In this document: positions 8,816-23,908 of the stretch, piece after piece
How positions within the stretch are numbered: the stretch's first letter is position 1
Layout: the number at the start of each line of letters is the position of its first letter
NCBI RefSeq assembly: GCF_000969905.1
Contig: NZ_CP009520.1
Span: forward strand, 3,782,001 to 3,846,000
Direction: 5' to 3'
Length of the DNA: 64,000 nt
Source of the DNA: Methanosarcina vacuolata Z-761
GTDB lineage: Archaea > Halobacteriota > Methanosarcinia > Methanosarcinales > Methanosarcinaceae
The notes under the pieces: generated by a model
Told to the model about the DNA's origin: nothing
Seen by the model: only the letters and a program-made list of their open reading frames with translations
Database searches by the model: none
Position numbers and translations under genes: made by a program

Positions 8816-9156
8816 CTACCACCTGGGTAAAGACCAGCTGGCTTCTTGATTCACATATGGCCATATGGCCATCTACACCTCCAAAGAGCTTTAGTTCGGA
8901 CCTCACTGGCCCTATTGAGCTATTTTTCCATTTGTCCGTTAAGGCTTTACACGAAAACAATCTGGTACAGCATATTTATAAAAAAATAACAAGAGTAAAC
9001 AGGATAATGTAAATCTGATCTGAATATTTAAACCAGAGAAACTAAGAAAAATCTGACACTTAAACTGGAGAATCTAAGAAATAAATGAAGCATTAAACAC
9101 AAGAAATTAAAATAATAACCACATGCTTTATTTGAACTAATGGTTAAGTGGAAGAA
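8816..9156. other. Spacer with overlapping CATATGGCC repeats
   Basis: 340 bases with no gene. At about 8855-8873 the short unit CATATGGC occurs twice in a row, making an almost palindromic patch (ATATGGCCATAT). The region near 9040-9120 is AT-rich and holds the arsR promoter, although I cannot place a clear TATA box. Confidence 0.4.
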
Positions 9157-9513
9157 ATGTCTGAGAAAAAAATAATTGAAGTAAAGGATGCATATTGTCT
9201 TCCGGAGGACGTGCTTGATGCCGTGCATGCGGCAATGAATGAGGATGTGGGAGAAATCGGTAGCCTGTTTAAGATACTTTCAGATCCCACCCGCCTCAGG
9301 ATTCTTAAAGCCCTTGAAGTCCAGAGTCTCTGTGTCTGTGTCCTTGTGGAATGTACGGACCAGCAGCATTCAGCTCTTTCCTATCATCTTAAACTGTTAA
9401 AAGAAGCGGGCCTGGTGAACTCGCGAAGAGAACGGAGTTTTCAGATTTATGAACTCACAGAGTTCGGAAACCTGCTCCTGAAGCATATTGAAAATCACTT
9501 TGAAAAAGCTTAA
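9157..9513 (+). CDS. ArsR/SmtB-family winged-helix repressor
   Basis: The 118-residue protein has the ArsR core LFKILSDPTRLRILKAL (residues 37-53) and the recognition-helix region HSALSYHLKLLKEAGLV. Cys59, Cys61 and Cys66 (SLCVCVLVEC) match the ELCVCD metal or metalloid sensor site, and Cys14 could be a further ligand. It most likely represses a promoter until it binds As(III), Cd or a similar soft metal, or responds to redox. ATG 9157 is chosen over GTG 9148 because GTGGAAG precedes it. No transporter gene is adjacent, so the target is unclear; the tandem array at 9549-9763 follows immediately. Confidence 0.9.
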   Translation: MSEKKIIEVKDAYCLPEDVLDAVHAAMNEDVGEIGSLFKILSDPTRLRILKALEVQSLCVCVLVECTDQQHSALSYHLKLLKEAGLVNSRRERSFQIYELTEFGNLLLKHIENHFEKA

Positions 9514-9548
9514 AAATAGAAATCAAGAGGAATTTAGTATCCTCTTTG

Positions 9549-9763
9549 AAATCTTTTCTATCTAGAAATCTTTTCTATCTAGAAATCTTTTCTATCTAGA
9601 AATCTTTTCTATCTAGAAATCTTTTCTATCTAGAAATCTTTTCTATCTAGAAATCTTTTCTATCTAGAAATCTTTTCTATCTAGAAATCTTTTCTATCTA
9701 GAAATCTTTTCTATCTAGAAATCTTTTCTATCTAGAAATCTTTTCTATCTAGAAATCTTTTCT
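9549..9763. repeat. 17-bp tandem repeat, 12.6 copies
   Basis: Twelve identical copies of AAATCTTTTCTATCTAG run from 9549 to 9752, followed by an 11-base partial copy. I see no mismatch between copies, so the array is young or is kept homogeneous. Each junction creates TCTAGA. It sits between the convergent arsR and nikR genes, so it may lie in both 3' untranslated regions. There are no spacers, so it is not a CRISPR array. Confidence 0.97.
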
Positions 9764-9820
9764 TTACTCCAGTCTTACTTTCTCATGGCTGTTCGAGAGA
9801 AACTTCTGCCTGGGGAAAAA

Positions 9821-10243
9821 TCAGATTTTATCGTTTGATGCTACGGTGGTGAGCTTTGAAAACTTTACCCCTTTGAGGGCCATTATAGCTTCGGCAAGCT
9901 CCTTTATCTCTTCACCTTCCCCGTCTAGAACAATCACTTCAAAGCAGTTGTCATGATCAAGGTGTATATGCACCGAAGATTTTATCAGGTGAGAATATTG
10001 GTGCTGAATATCTGCGAGAGCATTTGAGAGCCCCCTTTTTGTATGGTCGTAAATAACCGAAACGGTTCCAACACGGTAACCCTTAATATCACCCATCCAT
10101 TCGTAATAAGAAATATAACTCCTTATGGCATCTCTTATGCCTTCAGAGCGAGAAGAATAACCTCTTTTTTCGATAATCTCATCAAATTTATCTAGAAGGG
10201 TATCAGGAAGGGAAACTCCTATCCTCATAAGTTCTGTTTCCAT
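9821..10243 (-). CDS. nikR: Nickel-responsive regulator NikR
   Basis: This 140-residue protein has an N-terminal ribbon-helix-helix DNA-binding part ([19 protein letters not shown], then [14 protein letters not shown]) and a C-terminal ACT-like metal domain. The nickel ligands keep exactly the spacing of E. coli NikR (H76, H87, H89, C95): here H81, H92, H94 and C100 in HIHLDHDNC. It represses nickel uptake genes when nickel is sufficient. ATG 10243 has GGTGAT close upstream; M6 is an alternative start. No nickel transporter is adjacent in this window, but hypF (55943), needed for nickel hydrogenases, is present. Confidence 0.96.
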
Positions 10244-10729
10244 AATATCACCAAATAATCTTGGACTTGTTTACGAGTTAATACTTTAGTATATTATATG
10301 TAGCACTATATATGTTTTTTTCACATAGCCACTAATATAAAAGAGTTGATAACAAATATTCATTCTTTAATATTAATCTTTGGGAAAGCTCACATCTGCC
10401 ACCAAAAAATATATAGGCTTTTTTATGTTAGAAAAGGAACAATCCAGCCTGGAATTAATTAGAGATTAACGGATTAATATAGGAAGAAATAATATCAAAA
10501 TATGATAAAAGGTAGAAGAAAGTCTTAAAACAACTTATGTTTCAACAGGACTTTAATAAAATTGTATTGAAGATTGCTTTCAGGAATGAGTACATTTTCC
10601 AGGTAAACCATTTTTCCGCCATCAACAGTTTCACATTCTCTGTATCTTTTCATCATTTTCTGTGTCCTTGCTCTCTTCTCCTTGCTCTCTTCTCCTTGCT
10701 CTCTTCTCCTTGCTCTCTTCTTGTTCTCT
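10244..10729. other. nikR upstream region
   Basis: 486 bases with no supported gene. The left part, next to nikR, is AT-rich (10280-10400) and must hold its promoter. I see repeated ACTATATATG-like and TAGTATATTATATG elements near 10283-10313 but no clean NikR operator. The right end holds a pyrimidine-rich repeat at 10667-10722. Confidence 0.4.
10667..10722. repeat. 14-bp tandem repeat, 4 copies
   Basis: Four copies of CTTGCTCTCTTCTC (the last with a final T), in a pyrimidine-rich tract just beyond the stop codon of the F390 synthetase-like gene. It makes a spurious Leu/Ser-rich open frame on the plus strand. Confidence 0.9.
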
Positions 10730-12103
10730 TTATCGCCTGTCCACCAGCCTTTTAGGCCTGCCTTTTATCCTGTTAAGTTCGAGCCCCAGAGGGCCTGTGA
10801 AATTGAATACTATTTTGAAAGTGCCTTCGGCATAAGCCCTGGAAAGTGGAGGTTTATATCTGAGAAAAGTACGAAGAAAGTTCTCTTTTATAAGGTCCCG
10901 GTCGCACATCTCAGGATTTTCACATTCCATACTAACTCTGAGTACGGTTTCTCCCTCGTCTTCTGTGCCATAAAGAAAAGCCTCATATTCTCCGGTTAGA
11001 TAGTCCATGTTTTCGCGCTGAAAAACGCCCCTTTCCACATCTACGCGGTTAAAAGGAGTGCCTTCCACCCACGCGGTTTCAGCCTCCCGCTGAGGAGTCA
11101 GAATTTTCATGTGCGTCCTTCCACAGGGACACTGTTTGCGCGTAAGCACCACAGTCGTGTCTTCTGTATCATAATTTAAAAGAAGGGTTCCTGCTTTTGC
11201 CCCAACCGGCAGCAGCGTGCTCAGGATAACTCTTCCGCACTCTCCGTCAGGTACATAATTCTCGAGATGGGGATCATAAATATCAACATGGACAAGATCT
11301 TCAGGCACATGCAGCCCTGACACCTCATCACACTCGCCGCACATCGTGCCTTCCGTGCTTCCATAGATATTATACACAGGACAACCCCAGATTTCGGAAA
11401 GGTAATTCCTCGACTCGTCAGCAAAGGCTTCTCCTCCCACAACCAGTTTATCTATGCCTGACTCCCGAGGGTCGATGCCCTCTGCCCGTAACCTTCTGGC
11501 AAGGCTCAGGAGCTTGAATACGCTGCCTACTATGCCTGTAGGCCTGTAAGCTTCAATAACACGCAGGGGAAATGTGCACTTGCCCTCAGGAATAATGCTC
11601 ATACCAAGCTGCCTGGCCGCAAGGGTCATGGTGTTTGCTCCTACGTTCATCCCATAAGAAGCACAGACAACAACCCTGTCTCCAGGGCCGAAGCCCTGTG
11701 ACCTGAAAATACGAGCGTATTTTTCCGAATACCGTTCCCAGTCTTCCCATGTAAGGAAAAAACTCTTTGGGTTTCCGCTGGTTCCGCTGGTCTCATGAAC
11801 TGTGAAAACATCCTCCCAGCCCACACTCCTGAACATGAATTCGCTCGTTTCCGGAGGCTGGTTTTCGCGGATTGTATTTCCCGAGATTATTGGAAGGTCC
11901 AGAAGGTCTTCATGGGTTTTGATCTCAGCCGGGTCCACGCCATGCTTTTCAAACCATTTTCTGTAAAAAAGAGAATTTTCTGCCGCATATTTTACCGTGT
12001 ACCGTACCCGCTCCTCTATGAGAGCATCCAGTTCTCCCCTGTCCAGAGTCTCGATTTCAGGGTTGAAATAAGGTTTTGAGTTGTCTATAGAAAGCACCCC
12101 CAA
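10730..12103 (-). CDS. AMP-forming ligase, coenzyme F390 synthetase/PaaK type
   Basis: This 457-residue enzyme belongs to the ANL superfamily in the phenylacetate-CoA ligase branch. The adenylation P-loop is ETSGTSGNPKSF, the A5-like motif is YGSTEGTMCGE, and the C-terminal domain begins after CPCGRTHMKI. In methanogens this family includes coenzyme F390 synthetase, which adenylates F420 as a signal of redox stress; several paralogues exist, so the exact substrate is open. The start is uncertain: TTG 12103 is the first candidate and GTG 12097 the second, with the G-run GGGGGTG lying across both. The upstream region has a 15-bp triple repeat at 12112-12156. Confidence 0.85.
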   Translation of the reverse strand: MGVLSIDNSKPYFNPEIETLDRGELDALIEERVRYTVKYAAENSLFYRKWFEKHGVDPAEIKTHEDLLDLPIISGNTIRENQPPETSEFMFRSVGWEDVFTVHETSGTSGNPKSFFLTWEDWERYSEKYARIFRSQGFGPGDRVVVCASYGMNVGANTMTLAARQLGMSIIPEGKCTFPLRVIEAYRPTGIVGSVFKLLSLARRLRAEGIDPRESGIDKLVVGGEAFADESRNYLSEIWGCPVYNIYGSTEGTMCGECDEVSGLHVPEDLVHVDIYDPHLENYVPDGECGRVILSTLLPVGAKAGTLLLNYDTEDTTVVLTRKQCPCGRTHMKILTPQREAETAWVEGTPFNRVDVERGVFQRENMDYLTGEYEAFLYGTEDEGETVLRVSMECENPEMCDRDLIKENFLRTFLRYKPPLSRAYAEGTFKIVFNFTGPLGLELNRIKGRPKRLVDRR

Positions 12104-12111
12104 CTGGAATT

Positions 12112-12156
12112 ATAAGATATAGAAAGATAAGATATAGAAAGATAAGATATAGAAAG
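12112..12156. repeat. 15-bp tandem repeat, 3 copies
   Basis: Three perfect copies of ATAAGATATAGAAAG lie just upstream of the F390 synthetase-like gene (minus strand), where its promoter should be. On the minus strand the unit reads CTTTCTATATCTTAT, which contains TATA-like CTATAT. Confidence 0.9.
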
Positions 12157-12284
12157 TCTATTATTTATTGGCTTCAAAGATGAAACGTTTTCTGATGGCT
12201 TTTAAATTAATAGCCTCTTTAAACTTTAAAAATAGTAAGGTTGGACAGATAAAATCCGGACCTCTCCCCTTCCACTTTTTTTAT

Positions 12285-12410
12285 TTTTAAGCTACGTTTT
12301 ATGGTTCCATATTATGGCTCTGGTTTATGTTTCCATTTTATAGCTATGTTTTATGGCTCTGCTTTATGGTTCCATTTTATAGCTATGCTTTATGGCTACG
12401 CTTTTTTCCA
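12285..12410. repeat. Degenerate repeat of TTTTATGGTTCCATTTTATAG-like units
   Basis: In the spacer downstream of the ABC operon, short elements such as TTATGGCTCTG, TTTATGGTTCCAT and TTTTATAGCTATG recur several times with changes, giving a degenerate array. No gene is supported. It lies past the stop of the ATPase gene, on the 3' side of that operon. Confidence 0.6.
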
Positions 12411-12452
12411 CCGTATTTTTCTTAGACTTTTTAGATTTTTGTCAGATTCTGT

Positions 12453-13223
12453 TCATCTTCTTAAAGGTAAACACACTTTCCTTTTCATATCCTCAATTTC
12501 CCTGACAGCTACATTTACACCATAGACTGAAGACATCATCTTACTTGTTACAACGGTTTCAACCTTTCCTACGGCAACCAGTCTACCTCCAGACAGTGCT
12601 GCAGCCCTGTCACCTAACAGAAAAGCATGGTCTGGCATGTGTGTATTCATTACAATGGACATTCCAAGTGAAGCCAGTTTCTGGACAGTTTCCAGCACAA
12701 GGACCTGGTTTCCAAAATCAAGGTGAGAAGTTGGTTCGTCCAGCAAAAGCAAAGCAGGCTTCTGGACAAGAGCCCTGGCAATAAGCACCATTTGACTCTG
12801 TCCTCCACTGAGGTTAGCAACCGGCCTTTCTGCAAGATCAGAAATTCCCACCATTGCTAGCGATTCTTTTGCAAGTTTAATATCATCTGCACCAGGGGAT
12901 GAGAACATGGAAAGATGAGGGGCACGGCCCATGACTACAAAATCCAGCACAGTAAATGGAAAAACCACTTCATTTTGCTGAGGTACATAACCTATATGCC
13001 TTGCAATTCCCCTTACCCCAAGAGAAGCTGTATTCTCTCCCTGAATAAAGACAGACCCGGCAGCGGGTTTGAGAATTCCTGCAATACATTTGATAAGTGT
13101 AGATTTTCCTGCTCCGTTTGGGCCCAGGATACACATGATCTCGCCTTTTTTTAACGAAAAAGATACATTTTCAAATACTGGCCTTTTTCCATAAGAGAAA
13201 GCAAGGGACTTTACTTCCAGCAT
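12453..13223 (-). CDS. ABC transporter ATP-binding protein, FecE/BtuD type
   Basis: ATPase of a metal-chelate or corrinoid-type importer. Walker A GPNGAGKST is at about residues 34-42, the ABC signature LSGGQSQ near 140, Walker B LLLLDEPTSHLD near 160, and the switch His is in MNTHMPDH. The length (about 257) is normal. ATG 13223 gives a protein beginning MLEVKSLAF and has GGATGG upstream; ATG 13232, three codons earlier, is also possible. Either way the gene overlaps the permease stop codon, so translation is coupled. It is the last gene of the five-gene operon and pairs with the permease at 13223-14242. Confidence 0.93.
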   Translation of the reverse strand: MLEVKSLAFSYGKRPVFENVSFSLKKGEIMCILGPNGAGKSTLIKCIAGILKPAAGSVFIQGENTASLGVRGIARHIGYVPQQNEVVFPFTVLDFVVMGRAPHLSMFSSPGADDIKLAKESLAMVGISDLAERPVANLSGGQSQMVLIARALVQKPALLLLDEPTSHLDFGNQVLVLETVQKLASLGMSIVMNTHMPDHAFLLGDRAAALSGGRLVAVGKVETVVTSKMMSSVYGVNVAVREIEDMKRKVCLPLRR

Positions 13224-14242
13224 CAGTTCCATCCCATACGCCCCTTCTTGATAAGATATGCAAACAGCGGAGCTCCTACAAGAGAAGTGAGGATTCCAAG
13301 GGGAATTTCTGTAGCTACAATAGTCCTTGAAAGGTCATCCACAACCAGCATAAACGATGCTCCAATAACCATGCTCATAGGCAGGAGGCGGCTATAATTG
13401 GGACCGACGATCATTCTTGATATATGGGGCACAACCAGCCCGACCCAGCCAATGACACCGCTGATACTGACTGCTGCTGAAGTTACAAGGGTCGCACAAA
13501 CAATGATGACCAGGCGCATTTTTTCCACGTCCATCCCAAGAGCTTTAGCTTCCTCATCCCCCAGGGACAAAATATTGATGCGCCACCTGAAAAGAAGCAA
13601 GACGAGAGTCCCAATAAATATAGGCAATAATATGTAGAGCAGATCACCGTACCTGACAGTGGCAAGGCTTCCCATAAGCCAGAATACTATTGCAGGAAGT
13701 TGATCATAAGGATCTGCTACATACTTTGCCAGCGACGTAAGCGCCGTGAAAATAGAGCTCACAATAATTCCCGAAAGCACGAATACCAGAGTTCCAGTAC
13801 CTTTGCTGACTTTACCCATACTTATGGCAATAAACATCGCAAGGAGTCCGAAAGCAAAAGCCATCAACTGTATAATCAGATAATTGTTCCAGAGCAATAT
13901 TGCAAGGCATGCTCCAAAACCAGCTCCTGACCCCACTCCCAGGATATAAGGAGACACAAGTGGATTACGAAATATTCCCTGGAAAGAGGCTCCAGCTATG
14001 GAAAGAGCTGCACCTACCAGTAAAGCTGCAAGTATCCTCGGTAACCTTACATTGAACAGTACTGTGTGTTGAGTGGAAACCGAAGCAGGAGTGCCGAAAA
14101 AAAGAGATGAAAAAGCACTAATGCTTTCATCCGCAACTGCCGACAGTGGAGTCTGATATCTTCCGACAAAAAGGGAGATTACGAGTAATGCGATAGGTAA
14201 CAGGTACACCAGAGTAGTGCGATTAAACTTGTAATCAGGCAT
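13223..14242 (-). CDS. FecCD/BtuC-type ABC importer permease
   Basis: This 339-residue integral membrane protein has about ten helices and the conserved family elements RLPRILAALLVGAALSIAGA, FRNPLVSPYILGVGSGAG and GVIGWVGLVVPHISR, the last being the loop that contacts the ATPase. The family imports iron-siderophore, heme or cobalamin across the cytoplasmic membrane together with a binding protein. Its start overlaps the end of the radical SAM gene by eight bases (CATGCCTGA), and its stop overlaps the ATPase start. Substrate is unknown; the partner genes are unusual for an ordinary siderophore or B12 importer. Confidence 0.94.
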   Translation of the reverse strand: MPDYKFNRTTLVYLLPIALLVISLFVGRYQTPLSAVADESISAFSSLFFGTPASVSTQHTVLFNVRLPRILAALLVGAALSIAGASFQGIFRNPLVSPYILGVGSGAGFGACLAILLWNNYLIIQLMAFAFGLLAMFIAISMGKVSKGTGTLVFVLSGIIVSSIFTALTSLAKYVADPYDQLPAIVFWLMGSLATVRYGDLLYILLPIFIGTLVLLLFRWRINILSLGDEEAKALGMDVEKMRLVIIVCATLVTSAAVSISGVIGWVGLVVPHISRMIVGPNYSRLLPMSMVIGASFMLVVDDLSRTIVATEIPLGILTSLVGAPLFAYLIKKGRMGWN

Positions 14243-16007
14243 GAGTATACCTCATAACATGCCTGAGCCAGATACCGGAGGAAGGTCTGTGAAATGACCT
14301 GTTAGGTTTTGCTTCCTCAAAAGGTATACCGTAAAACCGTAGATAAAACTCATCTGCTTCCTTTTTCAGGTCGATTGCTGAGCTTCCTGGGTTCAGTTTG
14401 TCTGCTATGTACATGAGTCCCAGTATCCAGCGAGGGTTTCCGAAATCCCAGGACGGTGGGATTTCATAGACCCGGTGCTCTTTTACCGCATCTGCATATA
14501 TGCCGTATTGCTGGCACAGTCCATAAAACTCATCTATAGGTCGAGAAAGGAAACCTGAAATAAAAATTGTCTCAGGGTTCTGTTCATTTATAAAAGAAGG
14601 AGAAACATTTACCCCGGGTTTGCCTTCTTTTTGAATCTGTTTATTGATACTGACTCCCCCGGAAAATGTCACAAGGTTGTTTTCCATTCTCCCGGCGTTC
14701 AGAGCAAAAAGAGGAGAACCCATACAATAATACACCTTATGACCGCTATTTTCCGCTGCAAGAGATTTGACAAGTTCCAGGCGTTCACGGATAAAAGAAA
14801 TAAGTTCTTCTCCTTTTTCCGACTCATTTGCCTTCTCAGCAACAAGCCTGACAAATTCAAGGTAGGAATATGGTTGTTGTATCATATGATGTATTTGACT
14901 CAGGTTTTCGGGATTGGAGACCTTTACCCAGATTTCGATTACCCTGTGGTCGTCCAGTATTCCCAGGCATGTAAGTACTGCATGGACCATACTGAAAGCC
15001 CGGCTTATCCTGTAACCACCCATGAAGCCCTCTTCGTTGAAGCTTTCAGTTGCAGTTGTCCCTTTAACCGGAGTATTTTTACCACAAGTGCAGGTGTAAT
15101 TTATCCAGGGTTTTAGAGGTTTGGAACCCATGGGCCCGTAAAACTCCCTTTCTGCAAGAAGACTACCGCATTCAGGACAGTACGTGTTTAATGATTCCGT
15201 ACCTGGAGAATTGAAAAGATAGGCATAGTCTACATGCTCCCGCAGAGAGGCACACAGGCTCTCGGCTTCTCCAATAGAGGGTTCAAGCTCAATCGGGGCA
15301 TCCCCAAAAGGAATGAATCTCATTACCTGAACCGGAATGGTGGGGGAGATATTAGACAATGTTTTTGCAACATTTATTACGTCGTCCTCATTTCCCCTTG
15401 AGTATACGACCGAAGTTTCAACATGCACACCCAGGTCGAAAAGCCGGGAAATATTGCGGAAAACAGGTGCAGAGGATGGAACTCCACAGTTTATGTAACT
15501 CTGATCAGAATAGCCTTTAATTCCGATATTCATGAAATCTACAAGCTTTCCAAGCTCCTCAAGTGTCTCATCTGTGAAATAACAGTTAGTAGAACAGCCT
15601 GCAAGTAAACCTTTTTCTTTTGCCTGTAATGCAAGTTCCCTGAAAAGATAATAGTTTGCAGCAGGCTCATTGAGTGTAGAAACTACACCAAGGCATTCCT
15701 GCTGCAATGCCTTTTCCACCACCTGAGACGGGGTAAGCGCAGGAAGGTCAAGCGATTTCCCTGAAGCTAACAGGCGAGCTACGCAGCCTGAACACTGGAA
15801 GTTGCATCCGGTACTGAAAACCTGAAGGAATTTACCTGAGGGATAATAGTGAAGTAAGGGAATGGTTTCTATAGAAACAGGATATGCTCCAAGATATCCT
15901 ATATCAGGGTCTTGGATGATAGTATCACCATCACATACGTAGTTCCCGCACCTTCCCCTGCTCCATTCATCGATTTCACACCTGAATTCACACACATTGC
16001 ACTTCAT
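14235..16007 (-). CDS. Radical SAM protein fused to a periplasmic-binding-protein-like domain
   Basis: Residues 1-25 carry a Cys-rich start (C3, C6, C10, C20, C25) like that of AmmeMemoRadiSam/PflA-type proteins. The SAM [4Fe-4S] motif is C68xxxC72xxC75, followed by STLNEPAANYY (110-120). A ribbon with C277, C280, C306 and C308 follows. Residues about 330-565 look like a substrate-binding-protein lobe: VYYCMG (425-430), GGVSIN, NPETIFISG, DAVKEHRVYEIP (507-518), NPRWILG and EADEFYLRFYG. The same elements occur in the same order in the lipoprotein of this operon. There is no signal peptide, so this domain should be cytosolic. The start ATG has GGAAGG upstream, inside the end of the methyltransferase gene. 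It may modify or strip the imported ligand; this is inference. Confidence 0.88.
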   Translation of the reverse strand: MKCNVCEFRCEIDEWSRGRCGNYVCDGDTIIQDPDIGYLGAYPVSIETIPLLHYYPSGKFLQVFSTGCNFQCSGCVARLLASGKSLDLPALTPSQVVEKALQQECLGVVSTLNEPAANYYLFRELALQAKEKGLLAGCSTNCYFTDETLEELGKLVDFMNIGIKGYSDQSYINCGVPSSAPVFRNISRLFDLGVHVETSVVYSRGNEDDVINVAKTLSNISPTIPVQVMRFIPFGDAPIELEPSIGEAESLCASLREHVDYAYLFNSPGTESLNTYCPECGSLLAEREFYGPMGSKPLKPWINYTCTCGKNTPVKGTTATESFNEEGFMGGYRISRAFSMVHAVLTCLGILDDHRVIEIWVKVSNPENLSQIHHMIQQPYSYLEFVRLVAEKANESEKGEELISFIRERLELVKSLAAENSGHKVYYCMGSPLFALNAGRMENNLVTFSGGVSINKQIQKEGKPGVNVSPSFINEQNPETIFISGFLSRPIDEFYGLCQQYGIYADAVKEHRVYEIPPSWDFGNPRWILGLMYIADKLNPGSSAIDLKKEADEFYLRFYGIPFEEAKPNRSFHRPSSGIWLRHVMRYTHA

Positions 16008-16009
16008 TT

Positions 16010-16633
16010 TTAACCTTCCTTGCTTAATACCATCCAGAACCCAGAGTCATCCTGAACTACATGACAGGGAACCTCTGTCTGCCTTCCAGCTTCCTTTATA
16101 GCCTGAAGGTTTTCAGGACTGAGACGTTCTTTTGAACTTGTATGCCAGTCCGGATCTATTTCGACCATTTTTTCAGAGATCTGTGCTCTCAACTCTTTTG
16201 TGCCGAAGCCACCTCCTACCCATGCCTGACCACCCGGAGCAAGAACGCGAGAGATCTCATTAAAGGCAACAGGCAGGTCATTCCAGAAAAATACGGAACC
16301 ACGGCTTACTATGAGGTCGGCACAATTATTCCTGAAAGGGAGCAGGTGTACATCAGACTGCACAGGAGAAACTTTACCTGAAATGCAATGGCGTAAAGCT
16401 TTGTTTCTTGAAAGCCTGCACATCTCAGTTGAAATATCGACTCCATATACCTGCATATCCGTTATTTCCGCAACAGCAATTCCGAGGGATGCTATACCGC
16501 ATCCCAGGTCAAGGCATATACCTTTCTCTATCCCGCTTTGCTTGACAATATTAGCGGCTATTACAGGGTAGATGGGGGCAAAGATATTCTCTGCGATATA
16601 GGGAAAGCCCGGAGATTTGTCCTTCTCGCTCAC
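16010..16633 (-). CDS. Class I SAM-dependent methyltransferase
   Basis: 207 residues with motif I LDLGCG at 41-46, an acidic loop VYGVDIS, motif DLIVSRGSVFFW and a post-motif RVLAPGG. The fold is the UbiE/COQ5-like class I methyltransferase. It starts with GTG, and that GTG overlaps the TGA of the lipoprotein gene (GTGA), so the two are translationally coupled. It ends two bases before the radical SAM start. Being between a binding protein and a radical SAM enzyme, it probably methylates a small molecule handled by this operon, such as an imported or secreted metal ligand. No substrate residues can be read from sequence. Confidence 0.88.
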   Translation of the reverse strand: MSEKDKSPGFPYIAENIFAPIYPVIAANIVKQSGIEKGICLDLGCGIASLGIAVAEITDMQVYGVDISTEMCRLSRNKALRHCISGKVSPVQSDVHLLPFRNNCADLIVSRGSVFFWNDLPVAFNEISRVLAPGGQAWVGGGFGTKELRAQISEKMVEIDPDWHTSSKERLSPENLQAIKEAGRQTEVPCHVVQDDSGFWMVLSKEG

Positions 16634-17727
16634 GTCTTGGCCTCTGCTGAAGGGTTAAGTAGTGTATCAAGTTCTTTATCTGTTAGATCATAGTGGAAGA
16701 ATTCCGAGTAGAACTCACGGGTCAGTTCGGAGAGGTCCATATCTGTGAAAAGATCAGGATACAGCATTTTTGAAGTCCAGGCAGTTCCGAGAATAAGGTG
16801 AGGACCCTGTGGCCTGTCAATCCAGCAGAAAGGATTCTGAGGAGCAAGGTACACTCTTTTATTTTTCACAGCATCTACACTTGACCAGAGAGAATCAGAG
16901 TAAACTGTCGAATAGAACTGTGGATTTGAAGTGATGATTACCTCAGGGTTCCAGTTCATAACCTGTTCGATTGAAACCTGCGTCATGCCATTCCCTGGCG
17001 TAAGCTGACAGTCTGCAACGTTAATGCCACCGCAGATATCAATGACCTGGGAGTGCTGAGAACCTGAAGGATCGGTCATTAGCCCTTTTGGACCTTCCGC
17101 ATAATAGACACGTACTTTCTGGCCTTCAGGAAGGTCTTTTACAGTGTTATTTATCTCACTAAGGACTGAACTGCGGAAATCAATCAGTTTTTGCGCCTGG
17201 TCTTCACAGTTAAGAAGTTTACCCACATATTGTATGGTAGGATCGGATTTGTTGACGAAGATAATAGAATCATTAACAGCCACTACAGGAATGCTTCCAA
17301 AATTTTCCTGTCTGCGCTCTATAGCCTCATGGATTTCCCCATCAGTGGTGTATCCTTCAATTACAATGTCAGGATGCATGTTGATTATAGTTTCATAGTT
17401 CCCGGTCTGTGTTCCGAACCAGCCCCCTATTACAGGCAGGTTTGAATAGTTTTCAGCCATGAAAGGTTGAGTAAAATTATTTTTGAAGTTCCACCCTGCA
17501 AGTTTGTCCGGAGCAAGCATATACACGAGGATGGTAGACGGCGGAGAAGTGGCTACAACTGAAGAGATTTCCGTTGGCACGGTTAACTGCCTGCCCAACA
17601 TGTCGGTGATCTGTATCGTGCTTGAGTTTTGAACATCCTGCTGATTCGCATTTTCTGCACATCCACAGAATGCAACAGCCAGAACCAGAATAGAGAGTAG
17701 TAGTATTGTACTTATTTTTCCACGCAT
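16630..17727 (-). CDS. ABC transporter substrate-binding lipoprotein, FecB/BtuF-like
   Basis: The N-terminus is a lipoprotein signal: charged MRGK, a hydrophobic run and a Cys box ending in CGC, with lipidation probably at C23. The mature part is a two-lobe metal-chelate binding protein: ITDMLGRQLTVP, VVATSPPSTILVYMLAPDKLAGWNF, then lobe 2 with CGGINVA, NPEVIITS, DAVKNKRVYLAP and REFYSEFFHY. It is the first gene of the minus-strand operon and should capture the ligand outside the membrane. AGGT lies at modest spacing before the ATG. An inverted repeat at 17761-17780 lies in its promoter. Confidence 0.93.
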   Translation of the reverse strand: MRGKISTILLLSILVLAVAFCGCAENANQQDVQNSSTIQITDMLGRQLTVPTEISSVVATSPPSTILVYMLAPDKLAGWNFKNNFTQPFMAENYSNLPVIGGWFGTQTGNYETIINMHPDIVIEGYTTDGEIHEAIERRQENFGSIPVVAVNDSIIFVNKSDPTIQYVGKLLNCEDQAQKLIDFRSSVLSEINNTVKDLPEGQKVRVYYAEGPKGLMTDPSGSQHSQVIDICGGINVADCQLTPGNGMTQVSIEQVMNWNPEVIITSNPQFYSTVYSDSLWSSVDAVKNKRVYLAPQNPFCWIDRPQGPHLILGTAWTSKMLYPDLFTDMDLSELTREFYSEFFHYDLTDKELDTLLNPSAEAKT

Positions 17728-17760
17728 AGAAATACCTGACCGACTTTTATAGTTTAATCG

Positions 17761-17780
17761 TTATGTTTGCATGAACATAA
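17761..17780 (-). promoter_or_regulatory. Operator-like inverted repeat before the ABC/radical SAM operon
   Basis: TTATGTT and AACATAA form 7-bp perfect arms around TGCATG. The element begins 33 bases upstream of the lipoprotein start codon. On the minus strand it lies just downstream of an AT-rich stretch (ATATATATTTATAA), so it probably overlaps the transcription start, as a repressor operator would. Confidence 0.5.
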
Positions 17781-17919
17781 TGTTATAAATATATATTCTT
17801 ACATGTGGAAACTGGAAAAACGCTCTTGAACACGCTTTTTACAAAGTTTCTTCGATTTCACGGCCGACTGATAGTTTTCAGCATGTTTGCTATATCAGTT
17901 GATTGTTTTCATGGCAGAT

Positions 17920-17950
17920 TAATAGGAAAACGGTAACCTATTTCCTATTA
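17920..17950. promoter_or_regulatory. Inverted repeat TAATAGGAAA / TTTCCTATTA
   Basis: Perfect 10-bp arms separated by 11 bases (ACGGTAACCTA). It lies in the middle of the divergent region, just upstream of a plus-strand TATA-like CTATATATAA. It could be a regulator site for a plus-strand transcript or a structured RNA element. Confidence 0.4.
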
Positions 17951-18378
17951 CTATCTATATATAAGTTTGCGTTTAACGATTTATAGATTACTCAGCCCAC
18001 TTTCCGCAGAAAAAGTGTAGCATATTTATAATCGTTTCTGTTATCGATTTTTAATTTAACACGACTTTATTGGATTTCTGTGCAGGAGTTAAAAATAGCG
18101 AGATGGCCATGTTTAAGACGGTTAACAGTTCGATGCTGTTGATTTTTCAGTTCAACTGCGTAAGTCCTATAGACATCACCAAAATCACAGTTATGTCTTT
18201 TTCACACAATGAATATCGTCATAAGACGCTGAATTAAAACAAAAAACAACTATAGATTGGCTTATTACTGGACTCATTATAAGACGGGAAAAGAAAATTG
18301 AGAATTACTTTGCTATTCTTCATTTCGCGTGTTCATGGATTGCATTTAGAGCAGCAAGACTTTTTGGATAGGTTCTAA

Positions 18379-18397
18379 GCGAATCAGCAGGATTCGC
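18379..18397 (+). promoter_or_regulatory. Inverted repeat and TATA-like box before the DUF134 operon
   Basis: GCGAATC and GATTCGC flank AGCAG. Five bases later comes TTTATAATAA (about 18403-18412). With usual archaeal spacing transcription would start near 18430, close to ATG 18433, suggesting a leaderless message and an upstream regulator site. Confidence 0.4.
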
Positions 18398-18420
18398 AAG
18401 TTATTTATAATAAATCGCAT

Positions 18421-18972
18421 ATGAGTAATTTGATGGTGAATAGAGTTAAACGCAGGGTATCGTGCCTTCCAAAAGCCACATATTATAAACCCAGGAAGGC
18501 TTCTCTCTGCGATCTCGAAATTATTAACTTATCCATAGGAGAGCTTGAAGCTATCCGCCTTTGCGATCTCATTCACGTTGATCAGAACGAGGCCGCAGAT
18601 ATGATGGGTATCTCCAGAAAAACCTTCTGGAATGATCTGCAAAAGGCCCGACAGAAAGTGACTGATGCCCTTGTAAATGGAAAAGCAATAGAGATCTCCG
18701 GAGGAGAGTATATAAATAAAGGGGAGTGTAAAGTCGAATTCCTCTGCAGCGGGTGTGAGTATAGATGGGAATTACAGTGCAATACTGAGCGCCCAGCTAG
18801 CTGTCCAAAATGCGGCTCCGAAATCGTTTATCAAGTAGGCGGCAACGGAAGAGGAAATAATTTCATTGAGAACGATTACTGCTGCTCCAAAAGCAAGGGG
18901 AAAACAGCAGCGTTAAACGTTAAAGCAGGAAGTGTGAAAAGTGACAAAAATTGCTATACCATCGATGAATGA
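18421..18972 (+). CDS. DUF134 (UPF0251) HTH protein with C-terminal zinc ribbon
   Basis: The N-terminal part contains the DUF134 core: VSCLPKATYYKPR, then a sigma-like helix-turn-helix EAADMMGISRKTFWNDLQKAR. A ribbon follows with two CxxC pairs, CSGC and CPKC, and the tail is poorly conserved. DUF134 proteins are putative transcription regulators usually found beside NifX/NifB-type proteins, as here. ATG 18421 is the first start; ATG 18433 is equally good by family and would suit a leaderless transcript. The 3' end overlaps the NifX-like gene by 32 bases, which ties the two together. Confidence 0.85.
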   Translation: MSNLMVNRVKRRVSCLPKATYYKPRKASLCDLEIINLSIGELEAIRLCDLIHVDQNEAADMMGISRKTFWNDLQKARQKVTDALVNGKAIEISGGEYINKGECKVEFLCSGCEYRWELQCNTERPASCPKCGSEIVYQVGGNGRGNNFIENDYCCSKSKGKTAALNVKAGSVKSDKNCYTIDE

Positions 18973-19315
18973 CAGTGGATTGGAATCTGACGTTTGTTAT
19001 CATTATGGTTCATGTGAATATTTTACTATCGTGGATGTAAAAGAGAAAGATATTGAAAGTGTTAAAACAATAAGTAACCTGTCTCCTGAGATCGAGCATA
19101 ATTGCGCTGCTCCGTCAAAAATTTTGGAATCAAATAATGTTAATGCTGTGCTCGTCGCGGGTATTGGCGGAAGGCCGTTAATGTCACTGGCGGAAAAGAA
19201 CATCAAAGTATTTGCAGGAATAACGGGTAAGGTTTCCAATGCAGTTGAAGACTATAATAATGGATTGTTGCAAGAAATATCTATGAACGGCACCTGTAAT
19301 TGTTCTCATCACTAA
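18941..19315 (+). CDS. Dinitrogenase iron-molybdenum cofactor biosynthesis (NifX/NifB C-terminal-like) protein
   Basis: 124 residues with the NifX-like fold: MTKIAIPSMND, the ligand region HYGSCEYFTIVD, AVLVAGIGGRPLMSL, and a C-terminal CNCSHH that may hold metal. The family binds iron-sulfur or FeMo-type clusters; stand-alone archaeal members often act outside nitrogen fixation. It starts with GTG 18941 (AGGAAG eight bases before), inside the end of the DUF134 gene. No nif structural gene is in the window, so a general cluster-carrier or sensor role is more likely than nitrogenase assembly. Confidence 0.85.
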   Translation: MTKIAIPSMNDSGLESDVCYHYGSCEYFTIVDVKEKDIESVKTISNLSPEIEHNCAAPSKILESNNVNAVLVAGIGGRPLMSLAEKNIKVFAGITGKVSNAVEDYNNGLLQEISMNGTCNCSHH

Positions 19316-19377
19316 ACTACTTAATTAACAATGCTTGAATTGGGGCTTGAATCAGAGCTATCTAAAGAGGTGAAACC

Positions 19378-19695
19378 GTAAGCCGACAAGAAACCAATTA
19401 CTTAATTGACCTTATTCTGACAACTTTATTTTTTATTGTTGCAGGTACAGGTTTAGTTATGTATTTTTTAATACCTTCAGGAATTCCAAGAGGACAATAT
19501 ATAGTATATATGGGATTAACGAAAGCTACCTGGATTTGGATACACAGCAAAGCAGGGATCTTGATAGTTATTCTTATAGTTGTCCATCTTATCCTGCATG
19601 GTCAATGGATTCTATGTACCACAAAGAGATTTTTCAGAATAGGAAAGAAAAACGCTGTTTGTGAGACTAATACAGTGACTGATAAAGTCCGATAA
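19378..19695 (+). CDS. DUF4405-like small membrane protein, start codon unclear
   Basis: The frame is open from 19366 and reads SRQETNYLIDLILTTLFFIVAGTGLVMYFLIPSG, then WIWIHSKAGILIVILIVVHLILHGQWI. That is a two-helix DUF4405-type membrane protein with His residues able to bind heme. The first ATG, at 19459, would delete most of helix 1. AAGAGGTG at 19365-19372 points to a start near GTA 19378, which is not a normal start; GTG 19370 would be in frame only if one base were added before GTA. The gene is therefore either mis-assembled, mutated, or begins at an unusual codon. The tail is hydrophilic. Confidence 0.6.
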   Translation, partial: VSRQETNYLIDLILTTLFFIVAGTGLVMYFLIPSGIPRGQYIVYMGLTKATWIWIHSKAGILIVILIVVHLILHGQWILCTTKRFFRIGKKNAVCETNTVTDKVR

Positions 19696-19736
19696 GAAAA
19701 TTTTTCAAAGAGAATTTAAAAGTCGGAGTTGAGAGA

Positions 19737-20426
19737 ATGGATATTAAAGAAATAAACAGATACGGGCAAGAACTTGTAGACTGTCTGAAACTGAAAACGT
19801 CTCCTGTTGCAGTAAAGCTGATCCCAAAAGGAGGAGAAGTTCCCGAAGGAATGAAAGAAGTAGATGAGACTATGAGGCACTGCCAGCTGGTTGATAGGGT
19901 TAGAAGAACAGGTGAAGAGTTCTACACCCTTGGGGAAGACCAGATGTGCAAAGGCGGAGCCGGTGCAATGGGCCTTGGCGAAATGCCCCCAAAAGTCGCA
20001 AGTGGAGAATTTTATTTTAATAAACTCAAACAGTTCAGCACCCAGGGCGCTGCAAGGCGTACCCTTGAAAGAGTTCCAAAGCTTCCCCCAAACTCAACAG
20101 AAGCTATCCTGTATTCTCCTCTGGAAAAAGCAACGTTTATCCCTGATGTTGTTGTGGTTATCGGTTATCCTAAACAAATAATGTTACTTACACAGGCTGC
20201 AATGTATAAAGCAGGCGGCAGGGTCGAAGCAAGTTTTGCAGGAAAGCAGAGCCTGTGCTCAGACGGGGTTGTGAATGTATACAAAGAAGGCAAAATTGGA
20301 GTCACAGTCGGTTGCAGCGGCAGCAGGACATACACCAAAATCGCAGACGAAGAAATGATTATGGGAATTCCCATCGAACTTCTGGCTGATGTAGCCGCTG
20401 GCCTCAAAGAAATTTGTCCGAAGTAA
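19737..20426 (+). CDS. DUF169 family protein
   Basis: 229 residues with typical DUF169 features: an N-terminal LKLKTSPVAVKLIPKG, a Cys in MRHCQLV, DQMCKGGAGAMGL, and near the end CSDGVVNVY and GCSGSRTYTKI. Conserved cysteines suggest binding of a metal or a cluster, but the function of the family is not established. ATG 19737 follows GGAGTTGAGAGA. It is the last gene of the plus-strand group that starts with DUF134; DUF169, NifX-like and DUF134 together suggest a metal or redox-cofactor theme. Confidence 0.85.
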   Translation: MDIKEINRYGQELVDCLKLKTSPVAVKLIPKGGEVPEGMKEVDETMRHCQLVDRVRRTGEEFYTLGEDQMCKGGAGAMGLGEMPPKVASGEFYFNKLKQFSTQGAARRTLERVPKLPPNSTEAILYSPLEKATFIPDVVVVIGYPKQIMLLTQAAMYKAGGRVEASFAGKQSLCSDGVVNVYKEGKIGVTVGCSGSRTYTKIADEEMIMGIPIELLADVAAGLKEICPK

Positions 20427-20985
20427 GTTTCGAAAAGAGTATCTTCAGGTTTATAGAGTTCGCTGAAATCACAAACTCCACAACCTGAGTGAATAATCGG
20501 ATACATTTTGTTTGTTTCATCATCTTGGAGCGGATCTAGATAGGTTTTCCACAAACCTATCTAACCTTCAAGTAAATAACTGTCACAAAATAATTTTTGT
20601 TCTGATTAGTAAAATAAATAAGATTCTGTATTTGAGAGATTCAGCAAATAAAATAAGATTCTGTTTTTAAGAGATTCAGCAAATAAAATAAGATTCTGTT
20701 TTTGAGAAAGTCAGTAAATAAAATAAGATTCTGTTTTTGAGAGATACAGTAAATAAAATAAGATTTTGTATTTGAGAGATTCAGTAAATAAAATAAGATT
20801 CTGTTTTTGAGAAAGTCAGTAAATAAAAATGTTATATGGCCATGAGGTATATTATAAAAGGAAAAGAGGTTAATTAATCACTATTAAGTAACTTTTCTGG
20901 TTACACATATCAATTTTTGCCTATTTTGGGAGAAAATTTGCTTCTATTTTGTGACTTGAACTAAAATGAAGTCTTTTTGGAGTTA
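20427..20985. other. Spacer between convergent genes
   Basis: 560 bases. The first part (20446-20554) reads open on the minus strand with a protein-like piece (MYPIIHSGCGVCDF), but it continues antisense into the DUF169 gene and has no supported start, so I do not call it. The rest is the 35-bp repeat array and an AT-rich tail. Confidence 0.4.
20611..20820. repeat. 35-bp tandem repeat, 6 copies
   Basis: Six consecutive units of 35 bases, each containing AATAAGATTCTGTTTTTGAG and ending TCAGT or TCAGC with a few substitutions. There are no unique spacers, so this is not CRISPR. It lies between the convergent DUF169 and zinc-finger/HTH genes. Confidence 0.95.
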
Positions 20986-21381
20986 TTAACTCTCAAAAGG
21001 TACAAGATACACGCCATCTGCTCTTTTTTGCCCTTTTAACAGCTCACAATGCCTCAGAATAGCAAACTGGTTCTCGGTTTCCAGAAGGGATATTTGAAAC
21101 TTTTTTGCAATTTCTTCCTTTTTTACCCCACCACTGGAGACGATAAATTCATAGATGGCTTTTTGTAATTCAGTCAGGCCCTCTGTACCTTCAAGCCCGG
21201 CCTCCTTTCTGAAGGCTTTCTTGGAATAAGCTGCCCAGGGATCACAGACCTGAATCTTATGGTGAGCTTCTATGAAACAATCTTCACAGAAAACCTTGCC
21301 TTCCTCTTCTATACAATCTTCTTTTTCCATTTCACGCCCACAAATGTGGCATTTGACAGGATTGGTTATCTCTTCAGTCAA
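20986..21381 (-). CDS. Zinc-finger plus winged-helix protein, short paralogue
   Basis: 131 residues. An N-terminal treble-clef-like finger uses CHIC and CEDC, followed by HHKI; then comes EGTEGLTELQKAIYEFI and a winged-helix-like segment ending AILRHCELLK. The last 90 residues match the C-terminal part of the gene at 21779-22375 nearly position by position, so the two are paralogues. It is probably a transcription factor or adaptor; no known family name. It follows the carboxymuconolactone-decarboxylase-like gene by 17 bases and is the last gene of a three-gene minus-strand operon. Confidence 0.75.
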   Translation of the reverse strand: MTEEITNPVKCHICGREMEKEDCIEEEGKVFCEDCFIEAHHKIQVCDPWAAYSKKAFRKEAGLEGTEGLTELQKAIYEFIVSSGGVKKEEIAKKFQISLLETENQFAILRHCELLKGQKRADGVYLVPFES

Positions 21382-21398
21382 TTTTTCACCTCATTTTT

Positions 21399-21725
21399 TC
21401 AAACGTTCAATTCATCCAGAATTGTAAGAACCACCACAGATCCATATGCTACTGCAGGCCCGCCAGCCATTACTATGGCAGTACTGACAGCCTCCATAAT
21501 CTCTTCACGGGTAGCTCCCAGGTTTACAGCCTCCGGAACATGCTTCCACAGGCAGGGTTCACAGCGAAGGGCAACTGCAATCCCTACCATCATCAGCTCT
21601 TTTGTCCTGGCGCTTAAAGCCCCGTCTTTGACGACTTCGGAATGAAGTCCCATTACAGCGTTCATCACTCCCGGGAGTTCCCCGGCCATTTCTTTCATCC
21701 TTTCATTCATCTCGGTTTTATCCAT
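21399..21725 (-). CDS. Carboxymuconolactone decarboxylase/AhpD-like protein
   Basis: 108 residues with the family core LSARTKELMMVGIAVALRCEPCLWKHVPEA; the CxxC and the following His form the AhpD-type redox centre. GATREEIMEAVSTAIVMAGGPAV completes the helical bundle. The enzyme is a probable thiol peroxidase or peroxide-reducing partner rather than a true decarboxylase. ATG 21725 is preceded by GAGGTGA with seven bases between; a TTG directly before it is not needed. It is sandwiched between two paralogous zinc-finger/HTH genes, suggesting redox control. Confidence 0.88.
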   Translation of the reverse strand: MDKTEMNERMKEMAGELPGVMNAVMGLHSEVVKDGALSARTKELMMVGIAVALRCEPCLWKHVPEAVNLGATREEIMEAVSTAIVMAGGPAVAYGSVVVLTILDELNV

Positions 21726-21778
21726 CAACCACTCACCTCAGTATGCTTCAGAGTACACACATACACTGCATAAGAAAT

Positions 21779-22375
21779 TCAAGAGTCAAAAGGCACCATA
21801 TACATTTCTTCTCCCATTTTTCTCCACTTCAAAAGCTCGCAGTGCCGCAATATTGCAAGCTGGTTCATTGTTTCCTGAAGGGTGAGTCCAAAAAGCTTCG
21901 AGATCTTTTCGGGGGTTGCTCCTCCTTCTTCCAGGATAAATTCATAGATCTCTTTTTGCAGTTCGGTCAGTCCGTCTGTCCCTTCAAATCCGTGCTGTTT
22001 TCGGAAGAGTTTTTTAGAACGCACTGCCACAGGGTCTGCAAACTTTATTTTCTGGTGCCCTTCCAGATAACAGTCCTCACACGTCGGCCTTCCGTTTTCT
22101 TTGACATATTCACTTCCCGGGATATTCTTTCCGCACCCCTGACACGTTACAAAGTAAGCTACAGATTCGTCAATTTCTCTGTTTCCGGCTTTATTCGTAT
22201 TTATAAGGCCGTGAAACTCCAGATAACCTACTATTTCGTAAACTGTCGACCTTGATAACCCATATCCGGCTTTTGCTTTTTTTATAACGTCTCGAATATG
22301 GAATCCACGCTCGATTTGGACTTCTTTAATGCATTCAAGGACTCCAATTTCTTCTTCATCCAGCACAAGCATCAT
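21779..22375 (-). CDS. Winged-helix/zinc-finger regulator, long paralogue
   Basis: 198 residues. The N-terminal 70 form a winged helix (GYGLSRSTVYEIVGYLEFHGLI). A finger with CQGC and CEDC follows, then LTELQKEIYEFIL and AILRHCELLK, shared with the shorter gene at 20986. The layout is HTH, zinc finger, HTH-like. It is the first gene of the operon with the AhpD-like gene 53 bases downstream. A likely role is a redox- or metal-sensing transcription factor; this is inferred from Cys pairs and neighbours. Its real start may be the second Met. Confidence 0.75.
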   Translation of the reverse strand: MMLVLDEEEIGVLECIKEVQIERGFHIRDVIKKAKAGYGLSRSTVYEIVGYLEFHGLINTNKAGNREIDESVAYFVTCQGCGKNIPGSEYVKENGRPTCEDCYLEGHQKIKFADPVAVRSKKLFRKQHGFEGTDGLTELQKEIYEFILEEGGATPEKISKLFGLTLQETMNQLAILRHCELLKWRKMGEEMYMVPFDS

Positions 22376-22842
22376 TACAATCTCCGGAGCCAGAACCCAT
22401 TCAGATTCAGTCTTATAAAGTAACGTTATAAAGGGGGACTAAGATCCCGACCAGCTCCAAAAACTGGACCTTAAAACGAGCTTTTACACTGAACTTTTTT
22501 CTATATCCATCAAATCAGATTTTAGAACAGTGTTATTCCCATAAGTCAGTTTCTCTATCTATTTAATGTTAATAGTATATAATGATTACGATATATTTAT
22601 ATATAAAAATTAGATTTCCGAAAAGAAAGAATGGTCAAAGAAGGAAGTCCTGTTCACACCGGAAACTATATATGTGAAATTCATGATAATGTTATTTGTA
22701 TATTGGTGTGTTTTACACTAAGATGTAAATATCATCTATATAAGTAAAACACATATTGAAAGATTCCCGCCGCATAACATTGACATTTCAATTATATCCA
22801 CACTCCAGTTACACCGGCGAATATCATAAAACAGTGATCATA
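22376..22842. other. Divergent promoter region
   Basis: 467 bases between the minus-strand zinc-finger/HTH operon and the plus-strand PadR gene. It holds the nested inverted repeat at 22708-22752. The piece that reads open upstream of ATG 22843 has no ribosome site and is not called. Confidence 0.4.
22708..22752 (+). promoter_or_regulatory. Nested inverted repeat upstream of the PadR gene
   Basis: GTGTTTTAC (22708-22716) is mirrored by GTAAAACAC (22744-22752); inside it AGATG (22721) is mirrored by CATCT (22733). The two dyads have nearly the same centre. TATATAAG (22737-22744) lies inside, so a protein bound here would cover the TATA box. Autoregulation by the PadR protein is likely. Confidence 0.5.
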
Positions 22843-23172
22843 ATGTCCAGAAACAAATACGGGCGACATATCCCTGCATTTATATTACTGTTCCTTGCAA
22901 AGGAACCCGCCTACGGATCTCTCTTGCTCAACAAAATGGAAGAAGAGCTGCCTTTCAATCTAATCGATGGGCCTTCCCTTTATAGGTCTCTTCAGGATCT
23001 GGAAAAAGAAGGGGCTGTTGAGTCCTACTGGGACACATCAGAACCCGGGCCTGCTAAAAAGTGGTATAGGATAAGCCCGAAAGGGATGGAAAAACTGGAG
23101 GAGTTCCGGCAGGACATAGAAATGAGAAAGAAAAACCTGGAATATTTCCTCAACGCATTCAGGAAACTGTGA
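22843..23172 (+). CDS. PadR-family transcription regulator
   Basis: ATG 22843 gives MSRNKYGRHIPAFILLFLAKEPAYGSLLLNKME, a standard PadR start; the longer frame from 22756 has no support. The winged helix continues with GPSLYRSLQDLEKEGAVESYWD and GPAKKWYRISPKG, and a dimerisation helix ends the 109-residue protein. PadR proteins repress transporter or stress genes and often their own gene. The next genes on the strand are a DUF318 permease pair, its probable target. Confidence 0.9.
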   Translation: MSRNKYGRHIPAFILLFLAKEPAYGSLLLNKMEEELPFNLIDGPSLYRSLQDLEKEGAVESYWDTSEPGPAKKWYRISPKGMEKLEEFRQDIEMRKKNLEYFLNAFRKL

Positions 23173-23227
23173 ACCCTGGTTACTCAAAAATAATAAGTTC
23201 ATCCTGAAATTAAAAAACTCTCCTGGA

Positions 23228-23332
23228 ATTCAAAAAATGGACATGAGATTCAAAAAAAGGATATGAAATTCAAAAAAAGGATATGAAATTCAAAAAAAGG
23301 ATATGAAATTCAAAAAAATGGACATGAAATTC
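23228..23332. repeat. 20-21-bp tandem repeat, 5 copies
   Basis: Five units of the form ATTCAAAAAAAGGATATGAA, the outer ones reading ATTCAAAAAATGGACATGAG/A. The last unit runs into the dispersed hairpin element at 23322. Confidence 0.92.
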
Positions 23333-23390
23333 TTTGAATAACAGGCGCAAAGAAATGAAAGCACCTGAAAGTACTTTCATGCCAAATAAA
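23322..23390. repeat. Dispersed hairpin element, copy 1
   Basis: It starts ACATGAAATTCTTTGAATAA, contains arms ATGAAAG and CTTTCAT and ends CATGCCAAATA. A related sequence lies at 61876-61950 with the same flanks and a different, longer stem. It is found in the leader of the permease gene. Confidence 0.6.
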
Positions 23391-23409
23391 ATATCCCTTG
23401 AATTAAAAA

Positions 23410-23908
23410 ATGGAAAAAATGTGGTGGTCCCCTGAGTGGTATAATTCTTTACGCCCTGGCTTTTATTTTTTTGGTCTTTTCCTTTTTCAAAGACCGGAAA
23501 AAAACGAAAATAGCTATCCTCAAAGCCTGTAAATCCTTCTCATCCCTTCTGCCGGAGGTTCTCTCAATTATGATGTTTGTGGGAATTTCTCTGGCAATCC
23601 TGAGCCCGGAAACGATCTCAAGACTGATTGGAGCGGAGTCCGGCCCATTCGGGATTGCAGTTGCCCTGATTGCAGGATCGGTTACCCTTATCCCCAGTTT
23701 TGTTACTTTCCCTCTGGGAGCTGCCCTTCTTAAAGATGGGGCAGGGTATGCCCAGATTGCTGCTTTTGTCTCCACTCTTATGGCTGTTGGAGTTATGACC
23801 CTTCCTGTGGAAATAAAATATTTCAACAGATACACGGCAGTCCTCAGGAACATCTCGGCACTTCTGGTGTCCATAATTTTTACGGTCGTAATCTGGAGGC
23901 TTATGTGA
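23410..23908 (+). CDS. DUF318 (ArsP-like) permease, N-terminal half, frameshifted near its start
   Basis: ATG 23410 starts MEKMWWS, then the frame shifts by one base in the CCCC run at 23429-23432. Skipping one C gives MEKMWWSLSGIILYALAFIF, then VFSFFKDRKKTKIA, a natural opening for this permease family. Without the shift the only start in the second frame is TTG 23471, which removes helix 1. The remainder contains LIAGSVTLIPSFVTFPLGAALLKDGAGY and VGVMTLPVEIKYF, motifs of DUF318 permeases. It is followed at TGATG overlap by the second half (23908-24483). The pair forms a split permease, perhaps for an arsenical or a metal; substrate unknown. Confidence 0.75.

Follow-up and report, generated by a model that had tools for sequence, protein, structure and literature searches.

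A conserved Methanosarcina operon joining a type II importer to two S-adenosylmethionine enzymes behind a ModE-type site: a probable molybdenum-starvation uptake system

What is carried by an importer whose operon also encodes two S-adenosylmethionine (SAM) enzymes, and what do these enzymes do there? The question is raised by five minus-strand open reading frames, overlapping or nearly touching, at positions 12453-17727 of a 64,000-nt stretch of Methanosarcina vacuolata Z-761 (contig NZ_CP009520.1, positions 3,782,001 to 3,846,000; hereafter the window). They encode a substrate-binding lipoprotein, a class I methyltransferase, a radical SAM protein fused to half a binding protein, a FecCD-type permease and an ATPase. 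A first-pass annotation of the window had proposed that the operon imports a metal chelate or a tetrapyrrole and processes it in the cytosol. According to the present analysis, the operon is probably a molybdenum (Mo)-starvation importer whose imported complex is processed in the cytosol. Taken part by part, it is very likely Mo-responsive and serves the homeostasis of Mo, tungsten (W) or vanadium (V), it is likely to import a species of one of these metals, and a processing of the imported complex by the SAM enzymes is plausible, if short of probable. The regulation and the metal class are well supported; the direction of regulation, the particular metal, its ligand and the chemistry are inferred.

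The regulation is read from the promoter. Alignment of the upstream regions of 16 Methanosarcina copies revealed a conserved inverted repeat (consensus TTATGT-N8-ACATAA) right behind a TATA-like box and 43-45 bp upstream of the first gene across the genus, and the other four Methanosarcinaceae genera have the same repeat, likewise about 45 bp ahead of the main operon, with at most one mismatch. We take this repeat to resemble the ModE operator of Escherichia coli, and it looks like a ModE site. A search of 1.63 Mb of DNA gave 36 exact matches to the motif versus 0 for the reversed control, and strong sites define 25 promoter regions in four Methanosarcina genomes. Thirteen of these regions have a gene for ModA or a molybdopterin oxidoreductase no more than 8 kb away (0.46 expected, p 1e-16), and six are at the system described here or its paralogue (0.15 expected, p 7e-9). 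Direct inspection placed sites at modA and fmd operons, as well as at both of the alternative nitrogenase operons and further FecCD importer operons. In six Methanosarcina genomes, the gene for the paralogue of the fusion protein (69-72% identity) and an alternative nitrogenase operon with AnfG/VnfG (PF03139) and AnfO (PF09582) point away from each other, and the same ModE-type sites lie between the two. In Methanosarcinales, modABC is under the control of ModE, which also affects nitrogenases, according to a study that refers in turn to work on a conserved ModE element of archaea (PMC9765008). Lying immediately next to the TATA-like box, the site would cover the transcription start, and the predicted ModE-type regulator therefore likely represses the operon when Mo is present. 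The operon promoter has no NrpR nitrogen operator (GGAA-N6-TTCC), and no riboswitch from Rfam matched within positions 9000-24000 of the window.

The same survey of sites yielded several side observations. The further FecCD importer operons with a ModE-type site are at L183 (6112-6131), L194 (5379) and L189 (5173), one of them beside ModABC and FmdB, and Methanosarcina may thus possess several Mo-controlled type II importers. Strong sites are also found at L186 (6800) and L190 (5877), where no Mo gene is evident nearby, and one site, kept in two genomes, lies in the Mo-type nif operon, inside a nitrogenase gene (L187, 6891; L191, 8147).

The metal class is indicated as well by gene neighbours outside Methanosarcinaceae. 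There, ModA, DUF364 or PF00384 occurred within 10 kb of 12 of the 27 loci (1.55 expected, p 6e-9) and, counted by genus, in 7 of 13 genera (p 1.5e-4), p-values which are optimistic since the families were picked after some of the loci had been seen. Examples are ModABC (L104), MoeA (L105) and FmdBD (L131). Over all 44 loci, DUF364 was near eight (0.28 expected) and ModA near four (0.63 expected), with no enrichment of PF00384 on its own. DUF364 (PF04016), which the literature places in the context of Mo, W, V and iron transporters (PMC2954201), also occurs close to ModA or Fmd genes in several of the genomes; it is another protein family than those of the operon and is not part of the latter in Methanosarcina. 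Of the cargoes first proposed, a metal chelate may still apply; the promoter element and the Mo/W neighbours point to molybdenum or a related metal.

The profile of the binding protein was compared with solved structures in the PDB. The scores were 263 bits for 4pag, 148 for 4ovk, 140.6 for MolA (3psa) and 101 for YiuA, followed by IsdE (42), the heme-binding protein 2r7a (40) and BtuF (23). Both entries above MolA are uncharacterised, and MolA is the best characterised solved relative, with homology spanning both lobes (profile 40-345 on MolA 3-320); ferric-siderophore, heme and corrinoid binding proteins score far below it. The ligand itself is not fixed by homology. The molybdate/tungstate type II importer MolABC of Haemophilus influenzae (HI1470-HI1472) shares the FecCD permease, the ATPase, a homologous binding protein and, likely, Mo or W as the metal (PMC4031551), whereas the operon described here adds the methyltransferase and the radical SAM/half-binding-protein fusion and stands under an archaeal ModE-type site.

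This ranking bears on the tetrapyrrole branch of the first proposal, namely import and cytosolic breakdown of a heme, a corrinoid or an F430-like tetrapyrrole. FecCD/BtuCD-type transporters do carry such ligands, and radical SAM methyltransferases of the ChuW type exist, but the heme-binding proteins and BtuF (23-42 bits) are far below MolA, the heme-degradation models (ChuW/HutW) gave no NCBIfam match, tetrapyrrole methylase genes were near 0 of the 44 loci (0.72 expected) and the promoter carries a Mo-type operator. Tetrapyrrole, heme or corrinoid cargo was rejected as the leading explanation on model scores, binding-protein ranking and neighbour counts, and we regard it as highly improbable. 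Anaerobic heme degradation by ChuW/HutW is nonetheless a parallel in that a radical SAM enzyme is tied to the uptake of a metal complex, albeit with another radical SAM family and other regulation.

A closer rival is a chelate importer for another metal (an iron siderophore, or a nickel or vanadium chelate) that is needed once Mo is exhausted, such as iron or vanadium to supply the alternative nitrogenases, whereby the enzymes would release that metal. The position of the paralogue beside a V/Fe-type nitrogenase would suit such a function, as would the proximity of a NikR gene to the operon in the window and the presence of YiuA in the same branch of binding proteins, the PDB entries of YiuA holding iron with a catecholate-type ligand. 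The methyltransferase adds another link to iron. Its family profile matches PDB 3dlc with 315.7 bits, the SAM-bound structure of MMP1179 from Methanococcus maripaludis with a large cavity (PMC5289526), and the genes around MMP1176-MMP1181 are annotated as iron transport, including binding proteins (PMC8479958). With such neighbours, a related locus in Methanococci is probable, sharing the methyltransferase family with the operon and differing from it by its iron annotation, with function unproven. Nevertheless, MolA outscores YiuA, the loci outside Methanosarcinaceae are near Mo/W transporters and enzymes, and NikR is a neighbour in a single Methanosarcina subclade only. Overall, uptake of another metal is considered unlikely.

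The most unusual component of the operon is the fusion protein of 590 amino acids, with no visible signal peptide. Its first half (about residues 1-320) is AmrS-like, with the CxxxCxxC motif at C68-C75 and, at either end of the radical SAM half, an additional invariant pair of cysteines. In profile-profile comparison (hhalign), residues 382-564 aligned with the binding protein from the same operon over its residues 161-349 (probability 98.8%, E 7e-17), while the Pfam model Peripla_BP_2 gave 25.5 bits on residues 380-518, slightly under its cut-off of 27.5. The alignment covers the C-terminal half of a binding protein only, the first lobe not being seen in the fusion and residues 320-381 having no assignment, and solved binding proteins align to it only from their middle helix onward. 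The binding-protein-like C-terminus noticed in the first-pass annotation was therefore real, refined to half a binding protein. The model of this half alone (predicted local distance difference test, pLDDT, 61.6; predicted template modelling score, pTM, 0.68) had 4hn9, 2etv and MolA as the top Foldseek matches, a single one of them under E 0.001, which lends weak support to the binding-protein relation.

By model score, the nearest family is AmrS (AmmeMemoRadiSam), which has similar N- and C-terminal cysteine pairs. However, the fusion protein scores far below the cut-off of the family model TIGR04337 (81.7 vs 220 bits), belongs to another clade, is fused to a binding-protein half and is encoded with an importer; neither AMMECR1 nor MEMO was recognised among the operon neighbours, although no search aimed at those families was made. 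In the tree, all fused proteins form a single clade, and the fusion therefore seems to have arisen once; the radical SAM proteins of the unfused operons adjoin this clade, and AmrS is separate. At L020/L127 and at L116 the fusion gene is split over two reading frames, possibly by a frameshift or an assembly error.

A sample of 295 genomes spanning the phylum gave matches to the fusion at E below 1e-40 in 38 genomes, a few of which match in the radical SAM part only. All examined carriers from five Methanosarcinaceae genera, Methanosarcina and four others, have the genes in the order binding protein, methyltransferase, fusion, permease, ATPase. Since this order recurs across genera, the five-gene module is a selected unit and not a product of chance, in agreement with the earlier view of an importer operon with two cytosolic SAM enzymes. 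In other families, the methyltransferase and the fusion are mostly adjacent, and the transporter genes are moved, reversed, and often reordered or absent. The first-pass annotation had named genes found apart elsewhere as grounds for giving up its proposal: within Methanosarcinaceae the order holds, while outside this family the transporter genes are often displaced or missing and the methyltransferase and the radical SAM gene mostly stay together. An unfused version was found in four genomes of one genus, in the order binding protein, radical SAM protein, a protein of about 387 amino acids, methyltransferase, permease, ATPase; one of these copies is partly decayed and one is without a recognised methyltransferase. 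The protein of about 387 amino acids, for which there was no Pfam match, is encoded between the radical SAM and methyltransferase genes at L145 (8720-9880), L146 and L148, and is decayed at L147. No relatives were found in viral contigs, and plasmids had only separate AmrS or binding proteins and no fusion.

In the window itself, the coordinates agree with the packing and order of the genes as first described, and all five have Pfam matches to the domains initially assigned to them (Table 1). From the first gene to the last, the junctions are an overlap of 4 nt, a gap of 2 nt, and overlaps of 8 and 10 nt. The operon is flanked by genes for NikR (9821-10243) and F390 synthetase (10730-12103) on one side and by DUF134 and FeMo-co-domain genes (18421-19315) on the other. 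These were ruled out as parts of the system, since their synteny with the operon is limited to a single Methanosarcina subclade.

Table 1. Genes of the operon and elements of its promoter, in window positions.
Feature	Position	Strand	Basis
Substrate-binding protein, lipoprotein-like signal, MolA-like branch of the Peripla_BP_2 family	16630-17727	-	PF01497, 82.9 bits
Class I SAM methyltransferase, GTG start	16010-16633	-	Methyltransf_11, 69.6 bits; 3dlc family
Radical SAM/half binding protein fusion	14235-16007	-	PF04055, 47.7 bits; TIGR04337, 81.7 bits; hhalign
FecCD-type type II importer permease	13223-14242	-	PF01032, 304 bits
Importer ATPase	12453-13232	-	PF00005 (ABC_tran), 123 bits
Putative ModE-type 24-bp inverted repeat, CATTATGT-N8-ACATAACG, read on the minus strand	17759-17782	.	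Exact 12-base core, 17761-17780
TATA-like box ATTTATAA, directly upstream of the operator	17783-17790	-	Sequence and conservation in the alignment

An important question is whether the two enzymes act on the cargo at all. They might instead modify a Mo/W cofactor or a protein, with the importer being a plain molybdate/tungstate system of the MolABC kind. The homology of the binding protein to MolA agrees with this, as do the weak similarity of the radical SAM half to NifB, MoaA and PFL activase (about 20 bits) and the occurrence of the 3dlc-family methyltransferase, unaccompanied by the radical SAM fusion, beside ModABC and Fmd genes (L151, L152, L154). On the other hand, the presence of half a binding protein in the fusion suggests that it contacts the ligand of the importer, and enzymes and importer are in one operon even in the unfused version. 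We give such a plain importer a small chance of being correct. As a separate observation, the Mo/W locus at L151 (2917-15975, G086) comprises FdhD-like, FmdDB, FmdE-like and sulfate-permease-like genes, the 3dlc-family methyltransferase, two TrmO-like genes and two ModABC sets.

In the favoured explanation, a Mo-starvation importer with processing of its cargo, scarcity of Mo would cause the ModE-type regulator to leave the operator, which overlaps the expected start of transcription, so that all five genes would be expressed. The membrane-anchored MolA-like lipoprotein would capture an extracellular species of molybdenum, possibly of tungsten or vanadium, for import by the FecCD permease and the ATPase. 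In the cytosol, the half binding-protein domain may dock the imported complex beside the radical SAM centre, whereupon the radical SAM fusion, the methyltransferase or both would change its ligand, and the freed metal would go to molybdopterin or nitrogenase cofactors. An action of the enzymes on the cargo is suggested because the operon is a unity, the half binding protein is fused to one of them and plain oxyanion import needs no SAM enzymes. A complexed cargo, either an organic chelate or thiolated Mo, is more likely than free molybdate because the plain oxyanion importers ModABC and MolABC need no such enzymes. A dedicated uptake of complexed Mo, as an organic molybdophore or a thiomolybdate-type species of sulfidic water from which the two enzymes strip the metal after import, is put forward only tentatively.

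Apart from the iron links of YiuA and the Methanococcus relatives and the late choice of neighbour families, several points weigh against this explanation. The likeness to MolA is only about 25% identity. The ModE-like gene, present in 8 of 8 Methanosarcinaceae genomes and not found in 3 genomes outside this family, scores 62-70 bits with TIGR00637, under the curated cut-off of 98.5 bits, and ModE-regulated genes need not handle Mo itself. The neighbour enrichment leans mostly on DUF364, a family with unproven function, and not one of the 17 loci from Methanosarcinaceae had ModA, DUF364 or PF00384 within 10 kb. For the full-length fusion, the structure model was poor (pLDDT 44.6 from 8 sequences) and was not used. 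Finally, no biosynthesis or known chelator gene was found, and any metallophore is therefore hypothetical.

The importer as such belongs to an established type (MolABC/FecCD). What the searchable literature does not describe as a system is the combination of the two SAM enzymes, the fusion and the joint control by a Mo-type element, albeit an older survey of ModE sites might list the promoter. Methanogens depend on Mo for the common nitrogenase and on either Mo or W for formylmethanofuran dehydrogenase, yet their habitat is sulfidic water, in which molybdate turns into thiomolybdate and minerals (PMC10390477). For the acquisition of Mo by methanogens in such water, a conserved importer under predicted ModE-type control, encoded together with two SAM enzymes, is a concrete and genetically testable candidate. 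If the explanation is true, it would present a radical SAM enzyme working in metal uptake and would provide a metal context for the 3dlc methyltransferase family.

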